DNA from: Candidatus Zixiibacteriota bacterium
GTDB taxonomy: Bacteria > Zixibacteria > MSB-5A5 > GN15 > FEB-12
Assembly: GCA_024276275.1 (NCBI GenBank)
Contig: JAJRXM010000056.1
Coordinates: 1-39,501 of the forward strand
Length of the DNA: 39,501 nucleotides
Direction: 5' to 3'
A model generated the notes under the pieces. It saw only the letters and a list, made by a program, of their open reading frames with translations. It was not told the DNA's origin and did not search any database. Both the position numbers and the translations under genes were made by a program. Below are positions 486 through 12,220 of the stretch, piece after piece. Within the stretch, counting starts at the first letter, position 1. Each line of letters starts with the position of its first letter.

Positions 486-1697
486 TTAGTCTGTAAGATC
501 TAAAGGAATCAGTTTCCAAAGTTCAGTTTTTGAAAGTTGAGTATTACCGGAAATCAATCGAATAAGCTCCCCTGTCCGGTCAGATGAAACCTGTTTTACA
601 ATTGATTTGAGTAGTTTCGAAGTCACTTTTTTACCTGAAAATTCGGTTGGAGGATAGATAATATTCACATGATTTTCAGCTAAAAATTGAGTCGATTTTG
701 GGATATAGCAAGCTCTTATTTTAGTCTGCGATGATGTTCCGGTGATACGATTTACTAAAATAACTGGTCCAAATTCGGCTTTTGGAGAAATGATAAATTG
801 CGGTTTTGCATGATTATGCAAAGTCAATTTTCCTTTTTGAATATTAGCAGCCCAGATTAGGAGTTTCCCTTTTTTGGCCGAATCGGTCAGATTATCTTTT
901 TCGTTGTTCCAAACAATTGAGCCTGTTTTTACTCTGAAACCAGATTCAAATAATGTTGATTTGTTACTAAATGCTTGTTTTAGTTCGGTCGGATTTGGAG
1001 AAAAAATGGTGATATTGTTTTTTTTGAAAACGTACTTTTGCCTATTTTTACGTTTTTTAAGGATTAGTATCATCACTTGCTGTTGGGCATTTGAAAAAAT
1101 TGCGGATGAGGAAATAATTTTCAAATTGACAATATCAGCATGAGCTAAAATATATTCTCTCAACTTCCTAAAATATGCTCCATTATTCATAGACGGTGGG
1201 ACAACAAAACCGAGATAGCCGTTTTCTTTGAGAAGGTCTAAACTGAGCTTAATAAACAATGAGAATATATTTACTCTACCGTTCAGTATTTCCTCATATT
1301 GCTTCTTTTGAATTTCGGTAAGTTTCATCTCAAAATAAGGTGGATTTCCGATGATAAAGTCAAATTTATCGGACATTTTAGCTTTTAAGCTGTCCTTTTT
1401 GAGTATTTTTGCTTTGGGTATTATTTCTTTTGCAGTCCTAATCAATTTTGAATCAATTTCCCATCCATACAATGAAGCATCATTCCAACGTTCTGATGCT
1501 GAGAGTAAAAACTCACCGGTTCCACAGGCAGGGTCTAAAATCTTTGGTGATTTAATTTTAGGCAAAAGGATCAAAAGCTGTTCTCGAATAGGTTTTGGAG
1601 TAAAGTATTGCCCGAGTTTTTTACGGTGTGACAGCTTTGTCTTATCAATATAATTTTGAGAGAGTTGATGTAATTCTGAGGGTTTTCTCTTTCGCAT
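486..1697 (-). CDS. N6-adenine DNA methyltransferase (M.TaqI/Eco57I-like)
   Basis: Probably transfers a methyl group from S-adenosylmethionine to adenine N6 in a specific DNA site. Counting from the ATG at 1697 (403 aa), residues 29-34 (GQYFTP) fit motif X, LDPACGTGEF (54-63) is the SAM-binding motif I, and NPPY (118-121) is the catalytic motif IV of N6-adenine enzymes. The motif order and length match gamma-class enzymes such as M.TaqI (about 420 aa), with a C-terminal half left for target recognition. A TTG start at 1730 would add 11 residues (MHSSNFCVFSA), but they look unconserved. No restriction endonuclease gene lies beside it, so it may be solitary or its partner may lie outside the window. 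The target site cannot be read from sequence. Confidence 0.85.
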   Translation of the reverse strand: MRKRKPSELHQLSQNYIDKTKLSHRKKLGQYFTPKPIREQLLILLPKIKSPKILDPACGTGEFLLSASERWNDASLYGWEIDSKLIRTAKEIIPKAKILKKDSLKAKMSDKFDFIIGNPPYFEMKLTEIQKKQYEEILNGRVNIFSLFIKLSLDLLKENGYLGFVVPPSMNNGAYFRKLREYILAHADIVNLKIISSSAIFSNAQQQVMILILKKRKNRQKYVFKKNNITIFSPNPTELKQAFSNKSTLFESGFRVKTGSIVWNNEKDNLTDSAKKGKLLIWAANIQKGKLTLHNHAKPQFIISPKAEFGPVILVNRITGTSSQTKIRACYIPKSTQFLAENHVNIIYPPTEFSGKKVTSKLLKSIVKQVSSDRTGELIRLISGNTQLSKTELWKLIPLDLTD

Positions 1698-1743
1698 AGC
1701 TGAGAATACACAAAAATTTGATGAATGCAAAATATAAAATCAG

Positions 1744-1771
1744 TTGTAGAGCTAATTTATTTCGATATATT
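1744..1771 (+). promoter_or_regulatory. Candidate sigma-70 promoter for the phosphatidyltransferase gene
   Basis: TTGTAG (1744-1749) and TATATT (1766-1771) are spaced by 16 bp in the short divergent region, about 20 bp before the ATG at 1791. The -35 match is weak and the region is AT-rich. Confidence 0.3.
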
Positions 1772-1790
1772 GTTTTAAGATGGTGCTTAT

Positions 1791-2435
1791 ATGTTAAAAG
1801 AAATCAGACAAATTCCTAATTTAATATCGCTTTTTCGAGTATTGATAACTCCCGTAATCGGATATTATCTCTATTTGGATAACCCTCAGGCGACCCTTGT
1901 GGCAGTAATTCTGATGTTTATAGCGGGAATTTCAGATGCCTTGGATGGATATGCTGCCAGAAAAATGAATTTAGTTTCTGATTTCGGAGTCGCTTTTGAC
2001 CCTGTTTGTGATAAAGTATTTGCTCTGATAATGCTCGGATTTTTAATTCTATTTCGAGAGTTTCCGCTTTGGCTGGCAGCACTGATTTTAGGTCGTGATC
2101 TATTAATACTGTTTGCTGGTTGGACTCTTTTGAAAGGTCATAAGATAGTTGTACCGTCTAATTTGACAGGTAAATATACATTTGCAGCAATAGCTTTATT
2201 ATTGGGATCATCTACAATCAGATTTCAGTTTGGAATTGAAACAACGACATATCTTACAATTATTTTTACGATTTTATCATTGTTAGTCTATTATAGAGTT
2301 TTTCTAAAAGTTAAAAAAGGTCAGCCTGCTCCATCGTTTCAAGATTCTAAAACATATATGCTGATACGTACCGGTTTGGTAGTTCTCTATGTAGCATATT
2401 TTGCCTATAAATTATCGATTTTTCTTTTCGGGTAG
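1791..2435 (+). CDS. CDP-alcohol phosphatidyltransferase (PgsA-like)
   Basis: Integral membrane enzyme that swaps the CMP of a CDP-alcohol (usually CDP-diacylglycerol) for an alcohol such as glycerol-3-phosphate, making phospholipid headgroups. The family signature D-x2-D-G-x2-A-R-x8-G-x3-D-x3-D is complete: SDALDGYAARK begins near residue 48 and FGVAFDPVCDK follows; the four aspartates bind the metal ions. About six hydrophobic helices flank it, and 214 aa is slightly longer than typical PgsA (about 180-200). The gene is divergent from the methyltransferase and has no partners. The substrate (glycerol-3-phosphate, serine or other) cannot be decided from the motif alone, so no gene symbol is given. 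Confidence 0.88.
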   Translation: MLKEIRQIPNLISLFRVLITPVIGYYLYLDNPQATLVAVILMFIAGISDALDGYAARKMNLVSDFGVAFDPVCDKVFALIMLGFLILFREFPLWLAALILGRDLLILFAGWTLLKGHKIVVPSNLTGKYTFAAIALLLGSSTIRFQFGIETTTYLTIIFTILSLLVYYRVFLKVKKGQPAPSFQDSKTYMLIRTGLVVLYVAYFAYKLSIFLFG

Positions 2436-2457
2436 ATAGAAAAAATTCAGACAGAAA

Positions 2458-4797
2458 TCAGTATTCAAGTTCAGAATGGAATTGATTCACAAAGTCAGTA
2501 TAGGAGTCACTCACCGGTATTCCTAAAGAGTGAACAATTTTTGCCATTGCAGAAAAATAGTTATATCTGATTTCTATAGATTGTATATCGGTTTCAAGGG
2601 TTGTCTGTAAAATTTCCAGAAAATCGGTAGTTGAAAGAGTTGATTTATTGAAGTTCTCATTGGCAATTTGCAAAGTACTGTAAGCTCGTTGTTTTGCCTG
2701 ATATGCCGGTGTCATCTGCTCAGTATATTGGACAAAATTATGATAATTTGCGAGACCGATTTGCATTACGGCTAGAGAAGATACATCTTTTAAATATTCA
2801 GATTCACTGATACGGGCTAACGCTTGTTTTTTCTCTTTAAATCGTTTACCGCCTAGGTAGATAGGAAGGGTTACTTTACCACCAACATACCAGGATTGTT
2901 TTCTTGTTTGAAAAAGATCGCTCTCTTTTTGAAAATCATTATAATAAAGTGAACCTTGCAGCGATACTTCAGGGTAAAATGATGATTTATTTTTGTCCAG
3001 TAAGGTTTTATTATATGCAATATCCATATCAGACTTTAATTGATTTGGATTCTGTTTCAGTATTTTGTCTAAAAGCTTATTGCCGATTTTTTCTTGAGAG
3101 CTATGTGTCAGTAGTTTTCCGATAACCGGTGATTCAAATTGTATAAACTTATCTTCAGAAAAGTAATCTTCCTGTAAAAGGAATTCAGTCTCGGGGGGTA
3201 GATTGAGAAGACTATTTAAAAGAACTTGAGCTGTTTGTAAGTCTCTGTGATTTTTAATATATGCAAGTGTTAGATTGTAGCGGTAGTTATCGAGTCTTAA
3301 ATAATCAAGAGAATCCGGGTTATTGAGCAGTTGTTTAGCGTGTAGAATTTCTAAGTTATAAGAAACCATACTACGGATATTATTTATAATCTTACCTTGT
3401 TCTTTAATCTTTAAGTAGTCTACATAGGCTTGAGAAACAGCAAGTTCCAAATCAAGTTGAGTAGTTAGCTTATTTATCTCAACTATTTTTTTTATCTCTT
3501 TAGTCGATTTTATTTCTTTCAGTTTCTCTTTAGAAAAAAGGGTTTGCGAGAAGTTAAGAGAGGTTCTTAGGGCTTCTTTTTCTATATTGTATTGATAATT
3601 ATGGCGGTAGTTATCATCTAAATAATCTAATTGAGCTTCACCATAAATCTGAGGTTTGAGGGTTGATTTTGCTATAGCAACCTTAGCATCGGCAGCATCC
3701 AGTTTATCAAAGTGAGATAATATTAAAGGGTTTTGATTAAGAGCCAGGTTGACAACTTCGCTTAAGGTCGAAACAGGAAGATGCTCATTATTCTCTTCAC
3801 CGATTAGTTGATAGCTGTTAAAAATATCAGCTCGCAATTCTAAACCGCATTTTTGTGCTGAGAGTTTGTTTATTGCAACATGATACTCGCCTCGAAAAAT
3901 GACGGGTAGGTCAGCAGGTACAGCTCCATTAAGTATTTCAACTGTTTTAAAAGCATTAAAATATGCTTCGGATACAACACCATAGTAATTGTTAGTAGCG
4001 GTTGCTCCTTTTTGTATTAATATAGAACCTTCATCAGTGAATGTCGGTACCTTATCTCTGTCGAGCATTTGAAAAAATTCAGATATTTCACTAGAGTTTA
4101 ATCCCCAAAGTGGAGATAAGTACAGGGCATCAACTCGTTGTTTTTTTATTTTGTTATATGATTTAAAAAAAGCATAAGTACCTTCATTATCATATGCAGT
4201 GGCTGTGACAACTTCGAATCCAAAACGATCACCTAAAGATTTGATATGGTTGTAAAATGAGTTTGAGTTATCCTCGGATGGAAAATATAATAGTCCAAGT
4301 TTTTTTAGAGGGAGCAGTTTTGCTAGTGTGCTTATATCATCAATAGCTTTTCCCGGGCGGAAATGGACTGTTAAATTATCAGCAATCGGTCGGTCATTTT
4401 TCCCTAAGAATCCATCTGCTTTTGGATTAAACTGGTGCATCCCGATAATAGGTTTTTTAAATCCTGCATCAAGTAAATCTTGTACTACCCAAGGTCCGAC
4501 AGCTACAACAAAATCAAGATGTTTGATATCAACTAACTGCTTTGCCATCTTTTTAGAATTTTCACGATTCCATTCGGCTGAGCGGTATCCTTCGGGGATT
4601 GCAACTATTTGAACAGAGTCGGGTAGCAGCATTTCCAACTGCTTGGAATACTCATCTCGGAGAACTTCATGTACATCATATTGTCCCGCCTCAAAAAAAC
4701 CTACATTATATCTTTTAATATCTTCAGCGTATGTAGAGAAATTTATGGCAAACAGGAGTACGAGAATTGTAGTGAAAATTTTTAATCTATTATACAT
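2458..4797 (-). CDS. ABC-type substrate-binding domain fused to TolC-like outer-membrane protein
   Basis: A 779-aa exported protein with two parts. After a signal peptide (residues 1-24, ending STYA) comes a region to about 330 resembling the periplasmic ABC substrate-binding family (DUF534/TrpX type), with alternating strand-helix segments such as DFVVAVGPWVVQDLL and KLGLLYFPSE. From about 345 to the end it reads as an outer-membrane efflux protein: TLSEVVNLALNQNP, long heptad helices and two internally similar halves with VSLQGSLYY-type strands. TolC proteins are usually 420-500 aa and carry no binding domain. A good ribosome site (AAGGAAAG) precedes the ATG. The response regulator gene lies 81 bp upstream on the same strand. 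Ligand unknown; inferred to link periplasmic sensing or capture to an outer-membrane duct. Confidence 0.8.
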   Translation of the reverse strand: MYNRLKIFTTILVLLFAINFSTYAEDIKRYNVGFFEAGQYDVHEVLRDEYSKQLEMLLPDSVQIVAIPEGYRSAEWNRENSKKMAKQLVDIKHLDFVVAVGPWVVQDLLDAGFKKPIIGMHQFNPKADGFLGKNDRPIADNLTVHFRPGKAIDDISTLAKLLPLKKLGLLYFPSEDNSNSFYNHIKSLGDRFGFEVVTATAYDNEGTYAFFKSYNKIKKQRVDALYLSPLWGLNSSEISEFFQMLDRDKVPTFTDEGSILIQKGATATNNYYGVVSEAYFNAFKTVEILNGAVPADLPVIFRGEYHVAINKLSAQKCGLELRADIFNSYQLIGEENNEHLPVSTLSEVVNLALNQNPLILSHFDKLDAADAKVAIAKSTLKPQIYGEAQLDYLDDNYRHNYQYNIEKEALRTSLNFSQTLFSKEKLKEIKSTKEIKKIVEINKLTTQLDLELAVSQAYVDYLKIKEQGKIINNIRSMVSYNLEILHAKQLLNNPDSLDYLRLDNYRYNLTLAYIKNHRDLQTAQVLLNSLLNLPPETEFLLQEDYFSEDKFIQFESPVIGKLLTHSSQEKIGNKLLDKILKQNPNQLKSDMDIAYNKTLLDKNKSSFYPEVSLQGSLYYNDFQKESDLFQTRKQSWYVGGKVTLPIYLGGKRFKEKKQALARISESEYLKDVSSLAVMQIGLANYHNFVQYTEQMTPAYQAKQRAYSTLQIANENFNKSTLSTTDFLEILQTTLETDIQSIEIRYNYFSAMAKIVHSLGIPVSDSYTDFVNQFHSELEY

Positions 4798-4878
4798 ATT
4801 TTTACTTTCCTTCTTAAGTGACGTAGGGAAGTGAAAATATATAAAATAATTATATGAAGTGGTAATGAAAAATTAAAA

Positions 4879-5241
4879 TTAGGAGAGGATAGAATTTACT
4901 AATTCAGATAATTGTGATGCTTTGTACGGTTTTTGAAGGAAATATATATTTTGTTTTAAATCTTCAGGTAAATCATTGTCATTATAAATGTTACCGCTAG
5001 AAATAACTCCGGGGATATTTGGGGCTATTTTTCTAATTTCGCTAAGAATATCAAATCCGTTCATATCATCTAGAAGCATATCAACCAAAATAATATCCGT
5101 TGAATTACTATGTTCTTTGAACAATGAAATTGCGTTTGCGGATGTTTCAGCTGTTAAAACAGTATGTGAATCTCTTTGGAGTATTCTCTCTGCCAGCGAT
5201 CTAATCATTTCTTCATCATCAATAACAAGTATTTTAGCCAC
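4879..5241 (-). CDS. Single-domain response regulator (CheY-like)
   Basis: A 120-aa stand-alone receiver domain. The acidic pocket is D8-D9-E10, the phosphoacceptor is D54 (ILVDMLLDD), the switch position lies in VISSG and the conserved lysine in LQKPY. It has no output domain, so it must act by protein-protein contact or phosphotransfer. No kinase is adjacent. It is transcribed ahead of the substrate-binding/TolC fusion gene with an 81-bp gap, so they may share a transcript. Confidence 0.9.
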   Translation of the reverse strand: MAKILVIDDEEMIRSLAERILQRDSHTVLTAETSANAISLFKEHSNSTDIILVDMLLDDMNGFDILSEIRKIAPNIPGVISSGNIYNDNDLPEDLKQNIYFLQKPYKASQLSELVNSILS

Positions 5242-5381
5242 TTTTTTCCTTAAAAGATATAAATATTTATTTATTAATATATCGGAAGCTTACAGTTAAA
5301 ATTGACTAATAAGAATATAAACTATTTTGATTTAAGTGTTGTATTTACAGTAAGAAATCAAAGCTTTTTTAATTTAGCTCG

Positions 5382-5409
5382 TTGACTTTTAATAATATCA
5401 TCGTACTAT
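5382..5409 (+). promoter_or_regulatory. Candidate sigma-70 promoter upstream of nitrilase gene
   Basis: TTGACT (5382-5387) and TACTAT (5404-5409) with a 16-bp spacer, in the 261-bp divergent gap between the response regulator and nitrilase genes. This would give a leader of about 85 nt before the ATG at 5503. The rest of the gap is AT-rich. It includes GTAC-N5-GTAC around 5467-5480, which could be an operator, but nothing supports that further. Confidence 0.4.
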
Positions 5410-5502
5410 ATAAAATCAATGTTTTTTACTGTTTAATGACAGATTTTCACCCAAATATAGAGAAATGTACATTTTGTACCAATCAAAATATACCTGTTTA
5501 CG

Positions 5503-6171
5503 ATGAAACTAAGCATAGTTCAAAAAAATATTAATGACATCAACTATATTGAAGTCTTAGATGATCTCAAGGAATCAGGTACAGATATAGTCTTGTTTGG
5601 AGAATTGGCTGTTTCCGGTTGTCTCTATAATGGATTGGAAAACAGAAAATTAAAAACAGTGCAGACTCTTTCAGAAGAATTTCAAGAGTATCCTTTTGAT
5701 GTTATGATAGGGGTTCCACGAGTTGAGCGGGATAATATCTATAATTCTTATATCTATTTTGCCAAATCAGGCAGTCAGATTTACAATAAAATTAATCTTT
5801 TTGAACCTATGAATGAGACAAAACATTATAAACCGGGTGAAAGTTCTGTTATTTTTGAAGTAGGGTCTAAAAAATTTGGAGTATCAATTTGTTATGATAT
5901 TCGCTTTCCAGTACTGTATGACGAGTTACAAGAAAAGGGAGCAGATATTATCATAATACCTGCAGCTTTTCCACGGATAAGAATTTCTGTATGGAAACAA
6001 CTATTGGTCGAACGGGCTATACAAACCGGTCTGACTGTTATCGGTATAAATTCTGTAGGTAATGACGGAACAAACGAATTTGGCGGTTCTTCAATGGTAA
6101 TTGCTCCTGACGGTTCTATTATTGCCCAAGCTGATGAAATAAATGAAACTATTATAGAGGTAGAACTATGA
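5503..6171 (+). CDS. Nitrilase-superfamily amidase, possibly omega-amidase
   Basis: Carbon-nitrogen hydrolase of 222 aa with the full catalytic triad: E34 (LFGELAVSG), K96 (YNKINLF) and C130 (VSICYDIRFP). Family members are usually 250-280 aa, so this one is compact but looks complete at both ends. Its stop overlaps the aminotransferase start as ATGA (6168-6171), implying translational coupling. In E. coli and mammals, Nit2/YafV-type omega-amidases work with glutamine or methionine transaminases to hydrolyse 2-oxo-acid amides; the pairing here suggests the same role. Other nitrilase activities cannot be excluded. Confidence 0.85.
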   Translation: MKLSIVQKNINDINYIEVLDDLKESGTDIVLFGELAVSGCLYNGLENRKLKTVQTLSEEFQEYPFDVMIGVPRVERDNIYNSYIYFAKSGSQIYNKINLFEPMNETKHYKPGESSVIFEVGSKKFGVSICYDIRFPVLYDELQEKGADIIIIPAAFPRIRISVWKQLLVERAIQTGLTVIGINSVGNDGTNEFGGSSMVIAPDGSIIAQADEINETIIEVEL

Positions 6172-7331
6172 ACAACCAATTGAGGGATATAATTTTCTCA
6201 GGCATTGTGTCGGTGCGGGATAGGCTCCTGCAACTTGACAATCCGCTCCGTCTGGAATCCGGAGAGCCGTCGTTTGACACTCCACAGCATATTAAAGAGG
6301 CAATGGCAAAAGCCTTAGTTGATAACCATACACATTATGCCGCTTCAGCGGGAATCAAACCGCTTCGAGAGGCAATTCTTAAAAAAATAACCGAGAAAAA
6401 TAAAATCGGTTATATCGACGGCCTAGATAAAATTGTAGTTACCAACGGTGGTATGCATGCGTTGTACTGTACATTTCAAACTATTTTAAATGAGGGGGAT
6501 GAAGTAATTATCCCTCAACCGAATTGGACAGCTACCGGGTCGATGATTGAGCTTGCCGGAGGGATACTTGTAAAGGTGAAACTCAAACCGGAGCTTGCAT
6601 ATCGTTGGGATATGAATGAAGTAGAATCTAAAATAACAACTAAAACAACTGCTATCTTAATCAATACACCTCATAATCCGACCGGTGGGGTTATGACAAG
6701 AGACGATTTAAAAGCTCTGCTTGAGATTGCCGAAAAGCATAACTTATATATTATTTCAGATGAAGCGTACGAAGATATATTTTATGACCAAAAACATATT
6801 TAATTAGGTGAAATAGCGAACGATTTCCCTAAAAAAGTTCAAGATAAAATTATTACTGCTTTTACATTTTCAAAGTCATTCGCAATGACCGGATGGCGAG
6901 TCGGCTATACAGTATGTTCCTCAGATGATTTTGCCGATAATATGAAAAAGATGATTCTCTATTCTATTAACGGTGTCTCAACACCATCACAATATGGTGC
7001 AATAGCTGCTTTGGAAGGACCTCAGGATTGTATCGTTGAGATGGGAGATATTTATAGAGAACGCCGTGATATTTTATTTGAAGGTGTAAATCAAACACAA
7101 TTTTTGAGATGTGAAACTCCTCCGGGTGGGGCATTTTATTTATATGCGAGAATAACCGATGCATGGGATAAATCAGCATGGGACCTAGTAAATTACCTGA
7201 TAGATAACTACTCAATGGGGTCTGTTCCGGGTGATATTTTTTATGATGATGAGCCGTCAATTCGTTTTTCCTATGCATGTGAAACTTCTATGATACAAAA
7301 GGCGATTGAGAACTTAAAACAGCCTGCATAA
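6168..7331 (+). pseudogene. Class I/II PLP aminotransferase interrupted by one in-frame TAA
   Basis: Read through, the frame gives 387 aa, the normal length for fold-type I aminotransferases of the aspartate/glutamine/methionine group. It shows NTPHNPTGG, ISDEAYEDIFYD, the PLP lysine K236 in FTFSKSFAMTGWRVGY, and SIRFSYACE near the end with the carboxylate-binding arginine. A TAA at 6801-6803 interrupts the same frame after DQKHI, just before LGEIANDF. A single C to A change from TCA (Ser) would create it. There is no phase shift and both sides are well preserved, so a sequence error or very recent mutation is likely. It is coupled to the upstream nitrilase. Expected role: transamination of glutamine or a related amino acid, producing the amidase's substrate. 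Confidence 0.85.
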
Positions 7332-7439
7332 CCGAGTTATAGGCATGTTTGTAAGTGCTTGTCTCTTAGTGTGTTGTGAGCTGTCTTTGAGGTGTCGTTT
7401 TTTAGCTGTTAATTATTTTCTCCTTTTTGATAATTGGGC

Positions 7440-7468
7440 TTGACGATAGTCTTTTTTTACTATATTAT
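7440..7468 (+). promoter_or_regulatory. Promoter of tRNA-Ile2
   Basis: TTGACG (7440-7445) and TATTAT (7463-7468) with an ideal 17-bp spacer. The predicted start is near 7475, about 16 nt before the mature tRNA 5' end. Confidence 0.6.
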
Positions 7469-7490
7469 CAGAGACTTGGCTTTATTTTTC

Positions 7491-7564
7491 GGGCCCTTAG
7501 CTCAGTTGGTTAGAGCAGCTGACTCATAATCAGCGGGTCGCAGGTTCGAGTCCTGCAGGGCCCA
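7491..7564 (+). tRNA. tRNA-Ile2 (CAU anticodon, probably lysidine-modified)
   Basis: A 74-nt cloverleaf: acceptor GGGCCCT/AGGGCCC, D-stem GCTC/GAGC, anticodon stem GCTGA/TCAGC with loop CTCATAA, variable loop GGGTC, T-stem GCAGG/CCTGC with TTCGAGT, discriminator A. The anticodon is CAU. The pattern TTAGCTCAGTTGGTTAGAGC with GGTCG and the GGnCC-type acceptor resembles tRNA-Ile2 of E. coli and B. subtilis more than elongator or initiator tRNA-Met. TilS would then convert C34 to lysidine so that it reads AUA. The 3' CCA is not encoded (ATTT follows the discriminator). Elongator tRNA-Met remains possible. Confidence 0.9.
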
Positions 7565-7569
7565 TTTAA

Positions 7570-7595
7570 GTTGCCCCGCTGGATTTGTGGGCAAC
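7570..7595 (+). terminator. Hairpin just downstream of the tRNA
   Basis: GTTGCCC (7570-7576) pairs perfectly with GGGCAAC (7589-7595) around a 12-nt loop, six bases after the tRNA. No U-tract follows, so it may be a processing or pause hairpin rather than a true intrinsic terminator. Confidence 0.4.
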
Positions 7596-7665
7596 AAAGC
7601 CGATAGAGATAGAAATGGTTTTATCTGAAAGGTTGTAAGTTAATTTTAGTTTTACCGGTAAAAAT

Positions 7666-7752
7666 ATGATTGTAATACATAAAAAAATAATATTGCGAGA
7701 CAAAAGAGAACAGCTCATTGGAATGGCAAACCATATGAGGAAAAAAAATTAA
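7666..7752 (+). CDS. Possible 28-residue basic peptide
   Basis: An ATG at 7666 opens a 28-codon frame ending TAA at 7750-7752. The peptide starts MIVIHKKIILRDKREQLIG and ends HMRKKN, so it is short and very basic. Its stop lies two bases before a clear intrinsic terminator, so transcription through here is plausible. There is no convincing ribosome site (the upstream bases are CCGGTAAAAAT). It may instead be part of a small RNA, or chance. Confidence 0.2.
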   Translation: MIVIHKKIILRDKREQLIGMANHMRKKN

Positions 7753-7754
7753 AG

Positions 7755-7790
7755 CGCATTCATCTGGTAAACAGATTGGATGCGTTTTTT
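7755..7790 (+). terminator. Rho-independent terminator before the zinc-ribbon gene
   Basis: CGCATTCATCTG (7755-7766) pairs, with a small internal mismatch, with CAGATTGGATGCG (7772-7784), followed by six T. It ends whatever is transcribed from the tRNA promoter or from within 7600-7750. Confidence 0.8.
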
Positions 7791-7835
7791 AGTATATGAA
7801 AAAAATATTTTATACATACCTGCTGGAGGTCTATA

Positions 7836-8551
7836 ATGCAGCAAGACTTATCAAACTTACTTAAATTGCAGGAAATTGATTACTTTCTTGGCGAATTAGA
7901 ACGCTCAAAAGAGTATCTTCCTGATATGATGGAAACCTTAAACGAGAACTTGCAGAATCTCAACTGAAATATGAAACTGCTCTCTCGGATTTGGAAGATT
8001 CCAAACTTAAACAAAAAAATCTTGAACTCGAAGTAAAAACCAAAGAGGCCGATTTACAAAAATATCAACAACAGATGATGTCTATAAAAACCAACAAATA
8101 ATATGATGCGTTGGTTGCTGAAATAGATATGATTAAAACCTCAATTTCTTCAATGGAAACAGAACTTCTTGAAACTATTGATTTGATTCAAACTATAGAA
8201 TCAAATATCGACGAGTATAAAGAAAAATTGTTGCAGACCAAAGATAATAACGGAAAACAATTGGCTATCTTACAGGAAAAAATTGACACTATCGGTGATA
8301 AAGTTTCTGAAAAAAACGGTGAACGTGAAAATGTGACAACAGAAATATCCCGTCAGATTTTTTCGGTTTATGACAGAGTCAGAAAAGGTAAAGGCGGTTC
8401 TGCTGTTGTTCCGGTGAAAAGCCGTGCCTGTGGAGCCTGTTTTAAAGCATTGACTCCAAAAAAAGTACAGGAAATTAGAAAAGCAGTTAAAATTTTAACA
8501 TGTGATAACTGTGGTAGATTATTATATTGGGATGCTGATATTTCAGCATAA
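7836..8551 (+). pseudogene. C4-type zinc-ribbon coiled-coil protein, two disruptions
   Basis: Read across its lesions this is a protein of about 238 aa. The N-terminal coiled coil (LLKLQEIDYFLGELERSKE...) leads to a C-terminal C4 zinc ribbon: CGACFKALTPKKVQEI, then CDNCGRLLYWD. This family is common in bacteria and often sits near rnpB, as here; a nucleic-acid or ribosome-associated role is presumed but not proven. The ATG at 7836 follows a strong GGAGGT. The frame breaks near 7946-7950, where restoring one A in GAGAA(A)CTTGCA brings back the correct phase. A TAA at 8099-8101 then replaces the Glu expected in TNKEYDAL (GAA to TAA). A TTG at 8111 could start a truncated 146-aa protein. Sequence errors are a real possibility. 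Confidence 0.8.
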
Positions 8552-8580
8552 CTGTTTTTAAACTCAGGTAATTGATTGAA

Positions 8581-10050
8581 ATGACTAAAAAAATTCTCGA
8601 TGATATAGCCTTGACATTTGATGATGTCTTAATGGTTCCCGCATACTCCAATGTTCTTCCCAAAGATATTGATATATCAACTACGATAGCTAAAGGAATA
8701 ACTCTGAATATACCGATTGTTTCTTCTGCGATGGATACTGTAACAGAAACTCGTTTAGCGATAGCTTTAGCCCGTCAAGGCGGTATAGGTATTGTGCATA
8801 AGAACCTTTCACCCGAAGCTCAAGCTGCCGAAATTGATAAAGTTAAACGGTCTGAATCTGGAATGATTGTTGACCCGATTACGATGACTCCTCATAAAAC
8901 TATCGGAGACGCTTTAGAAGTAATGAAACGTTTTTCTATCTCCGGAATTCCAATTACCGAAGAGGGAAAACTTGTCGGGATTCTTACGAACCGTGATCTT
9001 CGTTTTCAGAAAGAAAGTAATCGTCTGATTTCTGAAATAATGACTACTGAAAATTTAGTGACGGTAAAAGAGGGAACCGACTTAGATACTGCCAAAGAAA
9101 TATTGCATAAACATCGTATAGAAAAACTTTTGATAGTTGATAACAATAAAATGCTCAAAGGTATGATTACTGTTAAAGATATCATGAAAAAAATTCAATA
9201 CCCAATCGCTTGCAAAGATAGCCGAGGACGTTTACGGGTCGGAGCAGCTGTTGGGGTTGGTGCTGATTTAGAAATCAGAGCAGAACAGCTGGAACAAGCC
9301 GGTGTTGATATATTAGTTGTTGATTCTTCACATGGACATTCAGAAGGTGTCCTTCGTGCCGTTTCGCTTTTGAAAAAGAAATTTCCCGATATTCCTGTTA
9401 TGGCCGGTAACGTGGCAACATCTGAGGGTACTAAAGCTCTAATAGATGCCGGTGCCGACTCAGTAAAAATAGGAATCGGTCCGGGTTCGATTTGTACGAC
9501 AAGAATTGTAACCGGTGGTGGTGTACCTCAAATTACCGCAATAATGGATGCGGTAAAAGAAGCGGATAAACAAAATATCCCGGTTATTGCAGACGGTGGA
9601 ATTCGTTATTCGGGCGATGTTGTAAAAGCAATGTCGTGCGGAGCATCTGCCGTGATGCTCGGTTCTCTTTTTGCAGGTGTTGAAGAATCACCGGGTGAAA
9701 CAGTTCTGTTTGAAGGACGTACTTTTAAAGTGTACCGTGGAATGGGTTCTGTCGGAGCTATGAAAGACGGCAGTAAAGATAGGTACTTCCAGGACCATCA
9801 GAGTGAAAGCTCGAAATTTGTTCCGGAAGGTATAGAAGGAAAAGTTCCTTTTAAAGTAATGTTGGCTGATACCGTTTATCAAATGATAGGTGGTCTTCGC
9901 TCCGGAATGGGTTTATGCGGTTCAGCTAATTTAAAAGAATTAAAAGAGAAATCACAGATGGTTCGTATTTCTCCGGCAGGTATGACAGAGTCACATCCTC
10001 ATTCAGTTTCTATTACAAAAGAAGCTCCTAACTACCGCCGTATGTATTAA
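8581..10050 (+). CDS. guaB: Inosine-5'-monophosphate dehydrogenase
   Basis: Oxidises IMP to XMP with NAD+, the first committed step to GMP, in the cytosol. From the ATG at 8581 it has 489 aa, the normal length. An N-terminal barrel start ([13 protein letters not shown]) is followed by two CBS domains (about residues 95-200; [10 protein letters not shown] marks the second) and the rest of the catalytic barrel. The active-site loop [15 protein letters not shown] places the catalytic cysteine at residue 305, the same number as in E. coli. The flap ([10 protein letters not shown]) and the C-terminal GGLRSGMG are also present. A TTG nine bases upstream could extend it by three residues, but ATG is preferred. 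It lies downstream of the zinc-ribbon gene and ahead of rnpB, with no terminator seen. Confidence 0.97.
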
Positions 10051-10091
10051 GTGAAGTAAGTAGATGTTATATAAATTGAAGTCTTGAGAAA

Positions 10092-10446
10092 GCAGGAGGA
10101 GCAGTCGCGCATTAAATGAAAGTTTGATGTGAGGAAAGTCCGAGCTCCAAAGAATTACGGTGCCCGGTAACACCGGGGCGGAGAAATCCGACGGATTAGT
10201 GCCACAGAAAATATACCGCTCGCCTTGGCGAGTAAGGGTGAAAACGTGGTGTAAGAGACTACGAGCAGCAGTAGTAATACTGTTGTTGGTAAACCCCGCC
10301 GGGAGCAAGACCAAATAGGGGAAGAAGGAGTTGATTCGCTCCGTTTGATTCCCGGGTAGGTCGCATGAGCACTCAGGTAACTGTGTGCCTAGATAAATGA
10401 CTGTTGTTCGCCTCGGCGAAATACAGAACTCGGCTTATACTCCTGC
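10092..10446 (+). ncRNA. rnpB: RNase P RNA (bacterial type A)
   Basis: Catalytic RNA that trims tRNA 5' leaders. The ends pair as GCAGGAG (10092-10098) with CTCCTGC (10440-10446). Universally conserved elements appear in order: GAGGAAAGTCCGAGCTCC from 10131, CGAGCAGCAGTAG near 10262, GCAAGACCAAATAGGG near 10305 and ACAGAACTCGGCTTATA at 10423-10439. Length (about 355 nt) and layout fit type A. It is encoded between guaB and recJ. An open minus-strand frame across it is a shadow. Confidence 0.95.
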
Positions 10447-10477
10447 ATTTTTCTAAGTCTTCAGGTTTGGAGGCTTT

Positions 10478-12220
10478 ATGAGCTGGCTAAAGAAATCAAC
10501 CCAGCTGAAATGGGTTCTTGCGGAAGCTGTTGAAACTGAGAAATTAGTTTCGCTTGCAAAAGAAACCAATTTACCGATGAGTGTTGTCAAAATTCTTTGT
10601 AATAGAAATCTTGATGATACTGAATCTATTCAAAAATTTTTACATCCGGATCTTAATGATTTGATTGATCCGTTTGAACTTATCGGTATGAAAAAAGGTA
10701 TCGATAGGTTAACTCAAGCCCTTTTTAATAATGAAAAGGTTTTGGTATTCGGCGATTATGATGTAGACGGTATTACCTCTACAACTTTGTTATACATGAT
10801 ATTCAATAAGCTAGGTGCCAATGTAGATTTTTATCTCCCGAACAGACTTACCCAAGGGTATGGTTTGGCTGAAGTGTCAATTGATAAGGCAAAAGAAAAA
10901 GGTGTTTCTCTCATTGTAACAGTTGATACCGGAATTACTGCTGTTGAGGAAGTCGCTTATGCAAACTCGGTCGGCATTGATGTGATAATCACAGACCACC
11001 ATGAACCGGGGGAATCACTTCCTGAAGCTGTTGCTATAATTAACCCAAAACAACCTGATTGTAATTATGTCTCTGAATTATCGGGAGTAGGGGTTGCATT
11101 TAAATTTGCTCAAGGTTTGTACCGAACATTAAATCAGGATGAAAAGGAATTAGAAGAACATCTTGATTTGGTTGCTTTGGGTACTACCGCAGATATCGTT
11201 CCTCTTGTAGGGGAAAACAGGATATTCACAAAATTTGGTATTAAACAAATCGCCCGTACAACAAAACCCGGATTAAAATCATTGGCTTTTGTCTCCGGTT
11301 TAATGGGAGAAGATATTTCAACCGGTCAGGTTGTCTTTATTTTAGCACCGAGAATTAATGCATTAGGTCGTTTAGGCGATGCTGACCAAGCAGTACGACT
11401 GCTTGCTACAAAAGATGAAAAACTTGCCTCTGAAATAGCACGTAAACTTGATGAAGAAAATAAACGTCGGCAACAAATCGACGAAAAAACTTTAAAAGAA
11501 GCACTAATACAAATGGAAGAGATTGTTGATGTCAGTGAAGATAATGCGATAGTTCTTGCGGGTGAAGGATGGCATCAGGGCGTTATTGGAATCGTGGCAA
11601 GTCGATTGGTAGAAAAATATCATTTGCCGACAGTTATGATTTCACTAAATGACGGTGAAGGAAAAGGGTCTGCTCGTTCTATACCGGGATTTCATTTGTG
11701 TGAAGCATTAAAAAAATGTGAAGACCTTCTTATTCGTTACGGTGGACATAAATATGCTGCCGGTCTGTCTATAAAAACTGAAAATGTAGAAGAATTCCGT
11801 AGAAGGTTTGTAGAAGTTTCTAATGTCAAGCTGTCAGATGATGATATTATTCCAAAGCTCAATATTGATTTAGAAATTGAACTTACTGATATCGATGACA
11901 GTTTTATGGATTCAATCGAAGCTTTTGCTCCGTTTGGACCTCATAATATGCGTCCGATATTTATGACTCGTAATTGTGAGGTAGTGAATCAACCGTATGT
12001 CGTCGGAAAAAATCATCTCAAAATGAAAGTTCGCAAAGGTGATGCACTTTTTGATGTTATCGGGTTTGGTTTTGGTGATATGGCTCGACTGATTTCATCA
12101 AAGGGATGTTTAGTTGATATTGTCTATGTAATTGAATATAATACATACAACGATATTACCCGTAAACAAATTCGCTTAAAAGATATTAAATTAACTGTTG
12201 GATCTATGCCGGCTGTTTAA
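10478..12220 (+). CDS. recJ: Single-stranded-DNA-specific exonuclease RecJ
   Basis: 5'-3' single-strand DNA exonuclease of recombination and mismatch repair. The 580-aa product has the DHH-family motifs: GDYDVDGIT (D93, D95, D97), VDTGI, DHH at 173-175, LGTTADIVPL, and RINALGRLGDADQAVRLL. The DHHA1 part contains RYGGHKYAAGLSI and GWHQGVIGIVASRL, and a C-terminal OB-like domain follows. The ATG at 10478 has a strong TTGGAGG site. It lies 31 bp after RNase P RNA and 18 bp before meaB. Confidence 0.96.
   Translation: MSWLKKSTQLKWVLAEAVETEKLVSLAKETNLPMSVVKILCNRNLDDTESIQKFLHPDLNDLIDPFELIGMKKGIDRLTQALFNNEKVLVFGDYDVDGITSTTLLYMIFNKLGANVDFYLPNRLTQGYGLAEVSIDKAKEKGVSLIVTVDTGITAVEEVAYANSVGIDVIITDHHEPGESLPEAVAIINPKQPDCNYVSELSGVGVAFKFAQGLYRTLNQDEKELEEHLDLVALGTTADIVPLVGENRIFTKFGIKQIARTTKPGLKSLAFVSGLMGEDISTGQVVFILAPRINALGRLGDADQAVRLLATKDEKLASEIARKLDEENKRRQQIDEKTLKEALIQMEEIVDVSEDNAIVLAGEGWHQGVIGIVASRLVEKYHLPTVMISLNDGEGKGSARSIPGFHLCEALKKCEDLLIRYGGHKYAAGLSIKTENVEEFRRRFVEVSNVKLSDDDIIPKLNIDLEIELTDIDDSFMDSIEAFAPFGPHNMRPIFMTRNCEVVNQPYVVGKNHLKMKVRKGDALFDVIGFGFGDMARLISSKGCLVDIVYVIEYNTYNDITRKQIRLKDIKLTVGSMPAV

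Follow-up and report, generated by a model that had tools for sequence, protein, structure and literature searches.

Outer-membrane factors (OMFs) are described as 472 ± 30 amino acids long, and fusions of outer-membrane pore proteins to other domains as rare (PMC4827864). In current models of tripartite systems, substrate choice lies with the pump and the adaptor, and the OMF serves as a conduit (PMC7396618). In CusCBA the periplasmic protein that recognises the substrate, CusF, is separate (PMC8277102). The lipoprotein YbjP binds the equatorial belt of TolC at 3:3 and remains bound during opening (PMC13095208). TrpX and CD0873, substrate-binding proteins (SBPs) of the PF04392 family, belong to uptake systems, and the ligand-contact residues of the TrpX type and their numbering have been described (PMC6816091, PMC9382623). 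The protein described here is a member of the TolC/OMF family (TCDB 1.B.17) with an architecture for which we found no description; no publication on an SBP–OMF fusion was found in the open-access literature. Such an OMF, with a binding protein built in, occurs in more than one phylum, and in one lineage the binding part is under stronger selection than the duct. It makes it directly testable whether an outer-membrane duct can choose, or be controlled by, its cargo.

The window is the whole stretch of DNA that was analysed, 39,501 nucleotides of contig JAJRXM010000056.1 from a Candidatus Zixiibacteriota bacterium. The open reading frame at 2458-4797 on the reverse strand encodes a 779-aa chain consisting of a signal peptide, a PF04392 SBP domain and a full TolC-type OMF. 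The features of the locus are as follows.

2458-4797, reverse strand: SBP–OMF fusion gene, 779 aa (open reading frame call, Pfam and AlphaFold2 model).
4726-4797, reverse strand: predicted Sec-type signal peptide, aa ~1-24 (..NFSTYA/ED), without a lipobox Cys (direct reading of the sequence).
3799-4716, reverse strand: PF04392-type bilobed substrate-binding domain, aa 28-333 (Pfam and structural alignment).
4483-4497, reverse strand: clade motif G-P-W-V-V, aa 101-105 (alignment of window-type fusions).
2482-3771, reverse strand: entire TolC-type OMF domain, aa 343-772, with two OEP repeats (Pfam and structural alignment).
3289-3342, reverse strand: first periplasmic helix-turn-helix tip, aa ~486-503, weakly conserved in the window type.
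2605-2652, reverse strand: second periplasmic tip, aa ~716-731, partly conserved in the window type.
4879-5241, reverse strand: single-domain response regulator (receiver), 120 aa (PF00072, 62.9 bits), 81 bp upstream of the fusion.
1791-2435, forward strand: convergent downstream neighbour outside the system, predicted to be PgsA/CDP-alcohol phosphatidyltransferase-like from the appearance of its sequence.

Pfam detected PF04392 (ABC_sub_bind) at aa 71-324 with 48 bits (cut-off 25.9) and PF02321 (OEP) in two stretches with 98.5 bits (cut-off 22). The AlphaFold2 model, a monomer prediction with 37 homologues as input, has a mean pLDDT of 89.4 and a pTM of 0.79 and is one continuous chain with a linker of ~10 residues between the two domains. 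The signal-peptide region is modelled as a helix at aa 2-18 followed by a low-confidence segment at aa 19-23 that contains the putative cleavage site. In structural alignments, aa 28-333 matched the solved PF04392 proteins 3LKV, 6HNI and 3LFT with Z scores of 28.3, 27.3 and 26.8, respectively, and each of these structures holds aromatic amino acids. The C-terminal part (aa 343-772) matched TolC (1EK9) with a Z score of 30.4 and an rmsd of 3.5 over 402 aligned residues (Z ~30-31 to TolC), and the beta-hairpins, long alpha-barrel helices and equatorial helices of TolC are all present in the model. Thus, Pfam and the model both agree with the original prediction that a single 779-aa chain joins a bilobed binding protein to an outer-membrane efflux protein of TolC fold, and we regard the two-domain architecture and the OMF origin of the protein as highly probable.

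The concern that the fusion is an assembly artefact or a chance read-through of two genes finds some support in the close relative G002, where the frame falls into two parts of 434 and 330 aa (L064 9811-12145), either an error or a pseudogene. Against it, one full-length uninterrupted frame is present in ~55 of 98 related genomes, which are independent assemblies belonging to three families of one order, and the model is continuous through a short linker. A scan of named records with the pattern GPW[VT]VxDLL, which possibly left the record of the window itself outside its scope, gave 28 loci, most of them labelled Candidatus Zixiibacteriota; of the others, a few carry just the label "bacterium", one is named candidate division GN15 and one Ignavibacterium sp. 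Close relatives of the window among these loci settle its phylum. These loci and the ~55 genomes rule out the artefact, whose probability we consider vanishingly small. The record named Ignavibacterium sp. (L129, DYGG01000013.1) carries a window-type fusion and groups with Zixibacterial genomes, and its label is probably wrong. The sole match in a plasmid collection was a plain TolC (23%).

The protein resembles the TolC/OMF family in its two OEP repeats and the whole fold of aa 343-772 (Z ~30) and differs from it by an extra binding domain of 305 residues ahead of helix H1. Residue 343 of the model aligns with residue 1 of mature TolC, and H1 forms part of the equatorial belt in this family (PMC8277102). 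The SBP domain therefore does not sit at the mouth of the channel, as had been proposed, but joins just before H1; because of this position, it is expected to be periplasmic and outside the duct wall. An added periplasmic domain, expected at the equatorial belt, is also what YbjP provides for TolC, although YbjP is a separate lipoprotein and the added part of the fusion is a fused SBP fold.

Among window-type fusions, conservation is higher in the SBP half than in the OMF half (2.50 versus 2.03 bits per site, 30 proteins, Mann-Whitney p 8e-11), which indicates that the SBP half is under selection. In the related type encoded with RND pumps (see below), the order is opposite (2.46 bits per site for SBP versus 2.60 for OMF, 12 proteins). 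In the clade motif, G101, P102, W103 and V105 are invariant in 30/30 window-type fusions and V104 is found in 26/30. The S. pneumoniae TrpX contacts T119, A138, T140, D163 and N244 correspond to P102, H121, F123, R147 and G232 of the fusion in an alignment of ~22% identity, where single positions could be shifted by one. All four positions in contact with the ligand's amino and carboxyl groups (T119, T140, D163 and N244) are thus replaced, and P102 occupies the position of the ligand-contacting Thr. Across the window type, the T119 position is an invariant Pro, the D163 position is mostly Arg or Gln, and the N244 position is Gly. The invariant residues G101, P102, W103, N141, L142 and Y226 include several that align with or adjoin ligand-contact positions of TrpX. 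This pattern suggests an altered ligand rather than decay, and the domain probably still binds some ligand. A purely structural role, in which a non-binding SBP fold would position or brace the equator of the duct as YbjP does for TolC (PMC13095208), fits the loss of the TrpX contact residues, the missing lipid anchor and the coincidence of the fusion point with the belt where YbjP sits. However, the new residue set is invariant and not drifting, and we consider this role rather unlikely.

The fusion has the fold and the family profile in common with TrpX, CD0873 and VC1101, and solved PF04392 proteins bind aromatic amino acids, as would suit an outer-membrane-assisted import in which the duct admits a ligand and the SBP passes it to an ABC importer. 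Unlike these proteins, the SBP of the fusion is neither a lipoprotein nor free. TrpX-type systems use a PF02653 permease. A search for an orphan permease of the same ABC family, as the original prediction had suggested, gave no PF02653 match in the host genome (95% complete) or in three genus-mates, and PF06541 had no match in the host genome either, nor in any of 61 genomes; an orphan ABC importer was accordingly rejected as the partner. PF02653 was found in 22 of the 61 relatives, with no visible relation to the fusion. The fusion lacks two defining features, the contact residues and the PF02653 permease, and so falls outside the TrpX importer group. The second PF04392 gene of the genome stands alone (L079 5223-6173); it overlaps a sensor-kinase-like gene (6170-7228) at the latter's start and has a TonB-receptor-like gene on its other side, with no ABC permease near.

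A second, sister type of fusion has the same layout and is 17-20% identical to the window protein. PF04392 scores over the cut-off in L049 and L150 and under it or not at all in the others tested. The model of L086 (pLDDT 84) gave Z scores of 23.4 to 3LKV for the SBP and 28.4 to TolC. In eight loci (L049, L057, L086, L088, L148, L150, L152 and L153), two of them outside the phylum, the genes are arranged in the order fusion, adaptor and RND pump. Two more (L087 and L151) follow the same order with the contig ending inside, and among further loci two outside the phylum have no adaptor or RND neighbours and one lies at a contig edge. This type is present in 7/132 genomes of the phylum, counted where E-values were far below those of the window type, and in 6 of ~250 genomes searched outside it, and three genomes (G018, G022 and G046) contain both types. 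In the L088 operon (1010-8259), a large receiver-PAS-histidine kinase gene shares 4 bp with the end of the RND gene. Maximum-likelihood trees were built separately for the SBP domain (supports 100/98, 99/97 and 100/100) and the OMF domain (a quick tree with SH-aLRT only); in both, window-type, RND-type and stand-alone sequences form one group each. A single ancient fusion event would fit these trees but is not proven by them, since the stand-alone sequences are all from this phylum and the branches are long.

The sister fusions resemble RND tripartite pumps (AcrAB-TolC, CusCBA) in that genes for a periplasmic adaptor and an RND pump accompany them. A domain of the kind that is separate as CusF in CusCBA lies within the OMF in the fusion, and the window copy differs further in having no adjacent pump. 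The operons of the sisters favour export with ligand recognition, and the absence of PF02653 from the genome and of PF06541 from 61 genomes, together with the replaced contact residues of TrpX and CD0873, disfavours import. Of the two options originally imagined, outer-membrane-assisted import and ligand-gated export, the former is hence very improbable, and the RND operons speak for export with ligand recognition, in which gating would be one possibility. It is quite likely that the protein works in export rather than import, and ligand-dependent control of that export is a nearly balanced question, leaning slightly to the negative.

In agreement with the original prediction, no inner-membrane pump gene is adjacent to the fusion in the window, where no adaptor or RND gene was found among the open reading frames beside it, and a receiver gene precedes it on the same strand. 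The receiver carries D9, D54, S82 and K104 of the standard set, and its ortholog lies directly upstream of the fusion in 12/37 loci. A promoter scan gave a result near the shuffled expectation. The adaptor-docking periplasmic tips hardly vary in the RND type (IGxxGPxEVYRWE and YSRGxVSIxDLLDAQN) and relaxed in the window type (mostly 0.5-3 bits for tip 1), so that docking of the AcrA-TolC kind is doubtful for the latter. The shortened fusions L055 (8084-9943, 619 aa) and L056 (7778-9628, 616 aa), both from one genus, are an SBP on a helical stalk: both beta-hairpin segments are missing and the SBP and the receiver are kept. The channel is therefore dispensable in that lineage.

These features bear on the strongest alternative for the window type, an envelope sensor in which the TolC part would serve mainly as a trimeric outer-membrane anchor and the SBP as a periplasmic receptor signalling to a pathway that includes the receiver. 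The conservation of the SBP half above the duct half, the relaxed tips, the upstream receiver, the hairpin-less proteins and the overlap of the stand-alone PF04392 gene with a sensor-kinase-like gene all point in this direction. On the other hand, the fusion has no linked inner-membrane receptor or kinase, the whole TolC fold is kept in most members, and the RND-type sisters clearly lie within pump operons. We consider a sensor unlikely, with the purely structural role ranking next.

In 17 genomes from two families, a heterodimeric ABC exporter lies head-to-head (divergent) with the fusion and within 3 kb of it. The receiver and this exporter recur most regularly beside the window type, by counts of loci that share ancestry and are not independent events, synteny being slow in general here. 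In the host genome, the orthologous ABC pair is located away from the fusion (L158 6388-9970). The exporter is present in 84/98 genomes and equally so in the fusion-less family f2; its presence in genomes without the fusion rules it out as an obligate partner and makes it a lead only, and it is the leading candidate for the inner-membrane partner of the window type. The PgsA-like downstream neighbour (cluster c1) likewise shows conserved synteny, at 25 loci, and other neighbours found in some relatives are lineage-local. Elsewhere in the genome, a separate contig (C83, L099 6209-10977) encodes a MarR-like protein, an adaptor and an RND pump, and no OMF gene lies alongside. This adaptor-RND pair (6728-10977) was rejected as an obligate partner: its pump is only ~24% identical to those of the fusion operons, and the pair occurs in 32/98 genomes irrespective of the fusion, including family f2. 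On another contig (C5, L100 5424-9977), RND pump and OMF genes are interrupted by stops and are apparent pseudogenes or errors.

The best explanation for the fusion, which we hold at a little less than an even chance, is an export duct of the TolC family whose equatorial belt bears an integral module for ligand recognition, re-specialised from its relatives. If the protein forms a trimer like TolC, three binding domains would ring the belt in the periplasm. A small periplasmic molecule, other than an amino-acid zwitterion of the TrpX/CD0873 type, would close the lobes of the SBP, and closure could either capture the export substrate or promote duct opening or recruitment to an inner-membrane exporter encoded elsewhere. 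The sisters would use the RND pump and its adaptor as this exporter, and the window type possibly the ABC exporter, and the adjacent receiver probably connects the duct to a signal pathway. Several observations weigh against this explanation, namely the window copy without an adjacent adaptor or pump, the adaptor tips relaxed relative to the RND type, the ABC exporter equally present in family f2, the slow synteny that also preserves the downstream gene, and the loss of the hairpins with retention of the SBP in L055 and L056. More tentatively, the two types may represent a class of export systems whose outer-membrane duct, and not the pump or adaptor, bears a dedicated periplasmic domain for ligand recognition, by which cargo is selected or the duct gated; the RND-linked form reaches beyond the phylum and the Zixibacterial form would be a divergent branch without a linked pump.

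Two other genes of the window, both on the forward strand, have disturbed frames. The aminotransferase gene (6168-7331) contains an in-frame TAA at 6801-6803; its relative in L059 is a single 387-aa frame, 87% identical across the TAA site, and the interruption would be either a sequencing error or a pseudogene. The zinc-ribbon protein gene (7785-8548) shows a frame change near 7934 relative to its 257-aa relative in L059.
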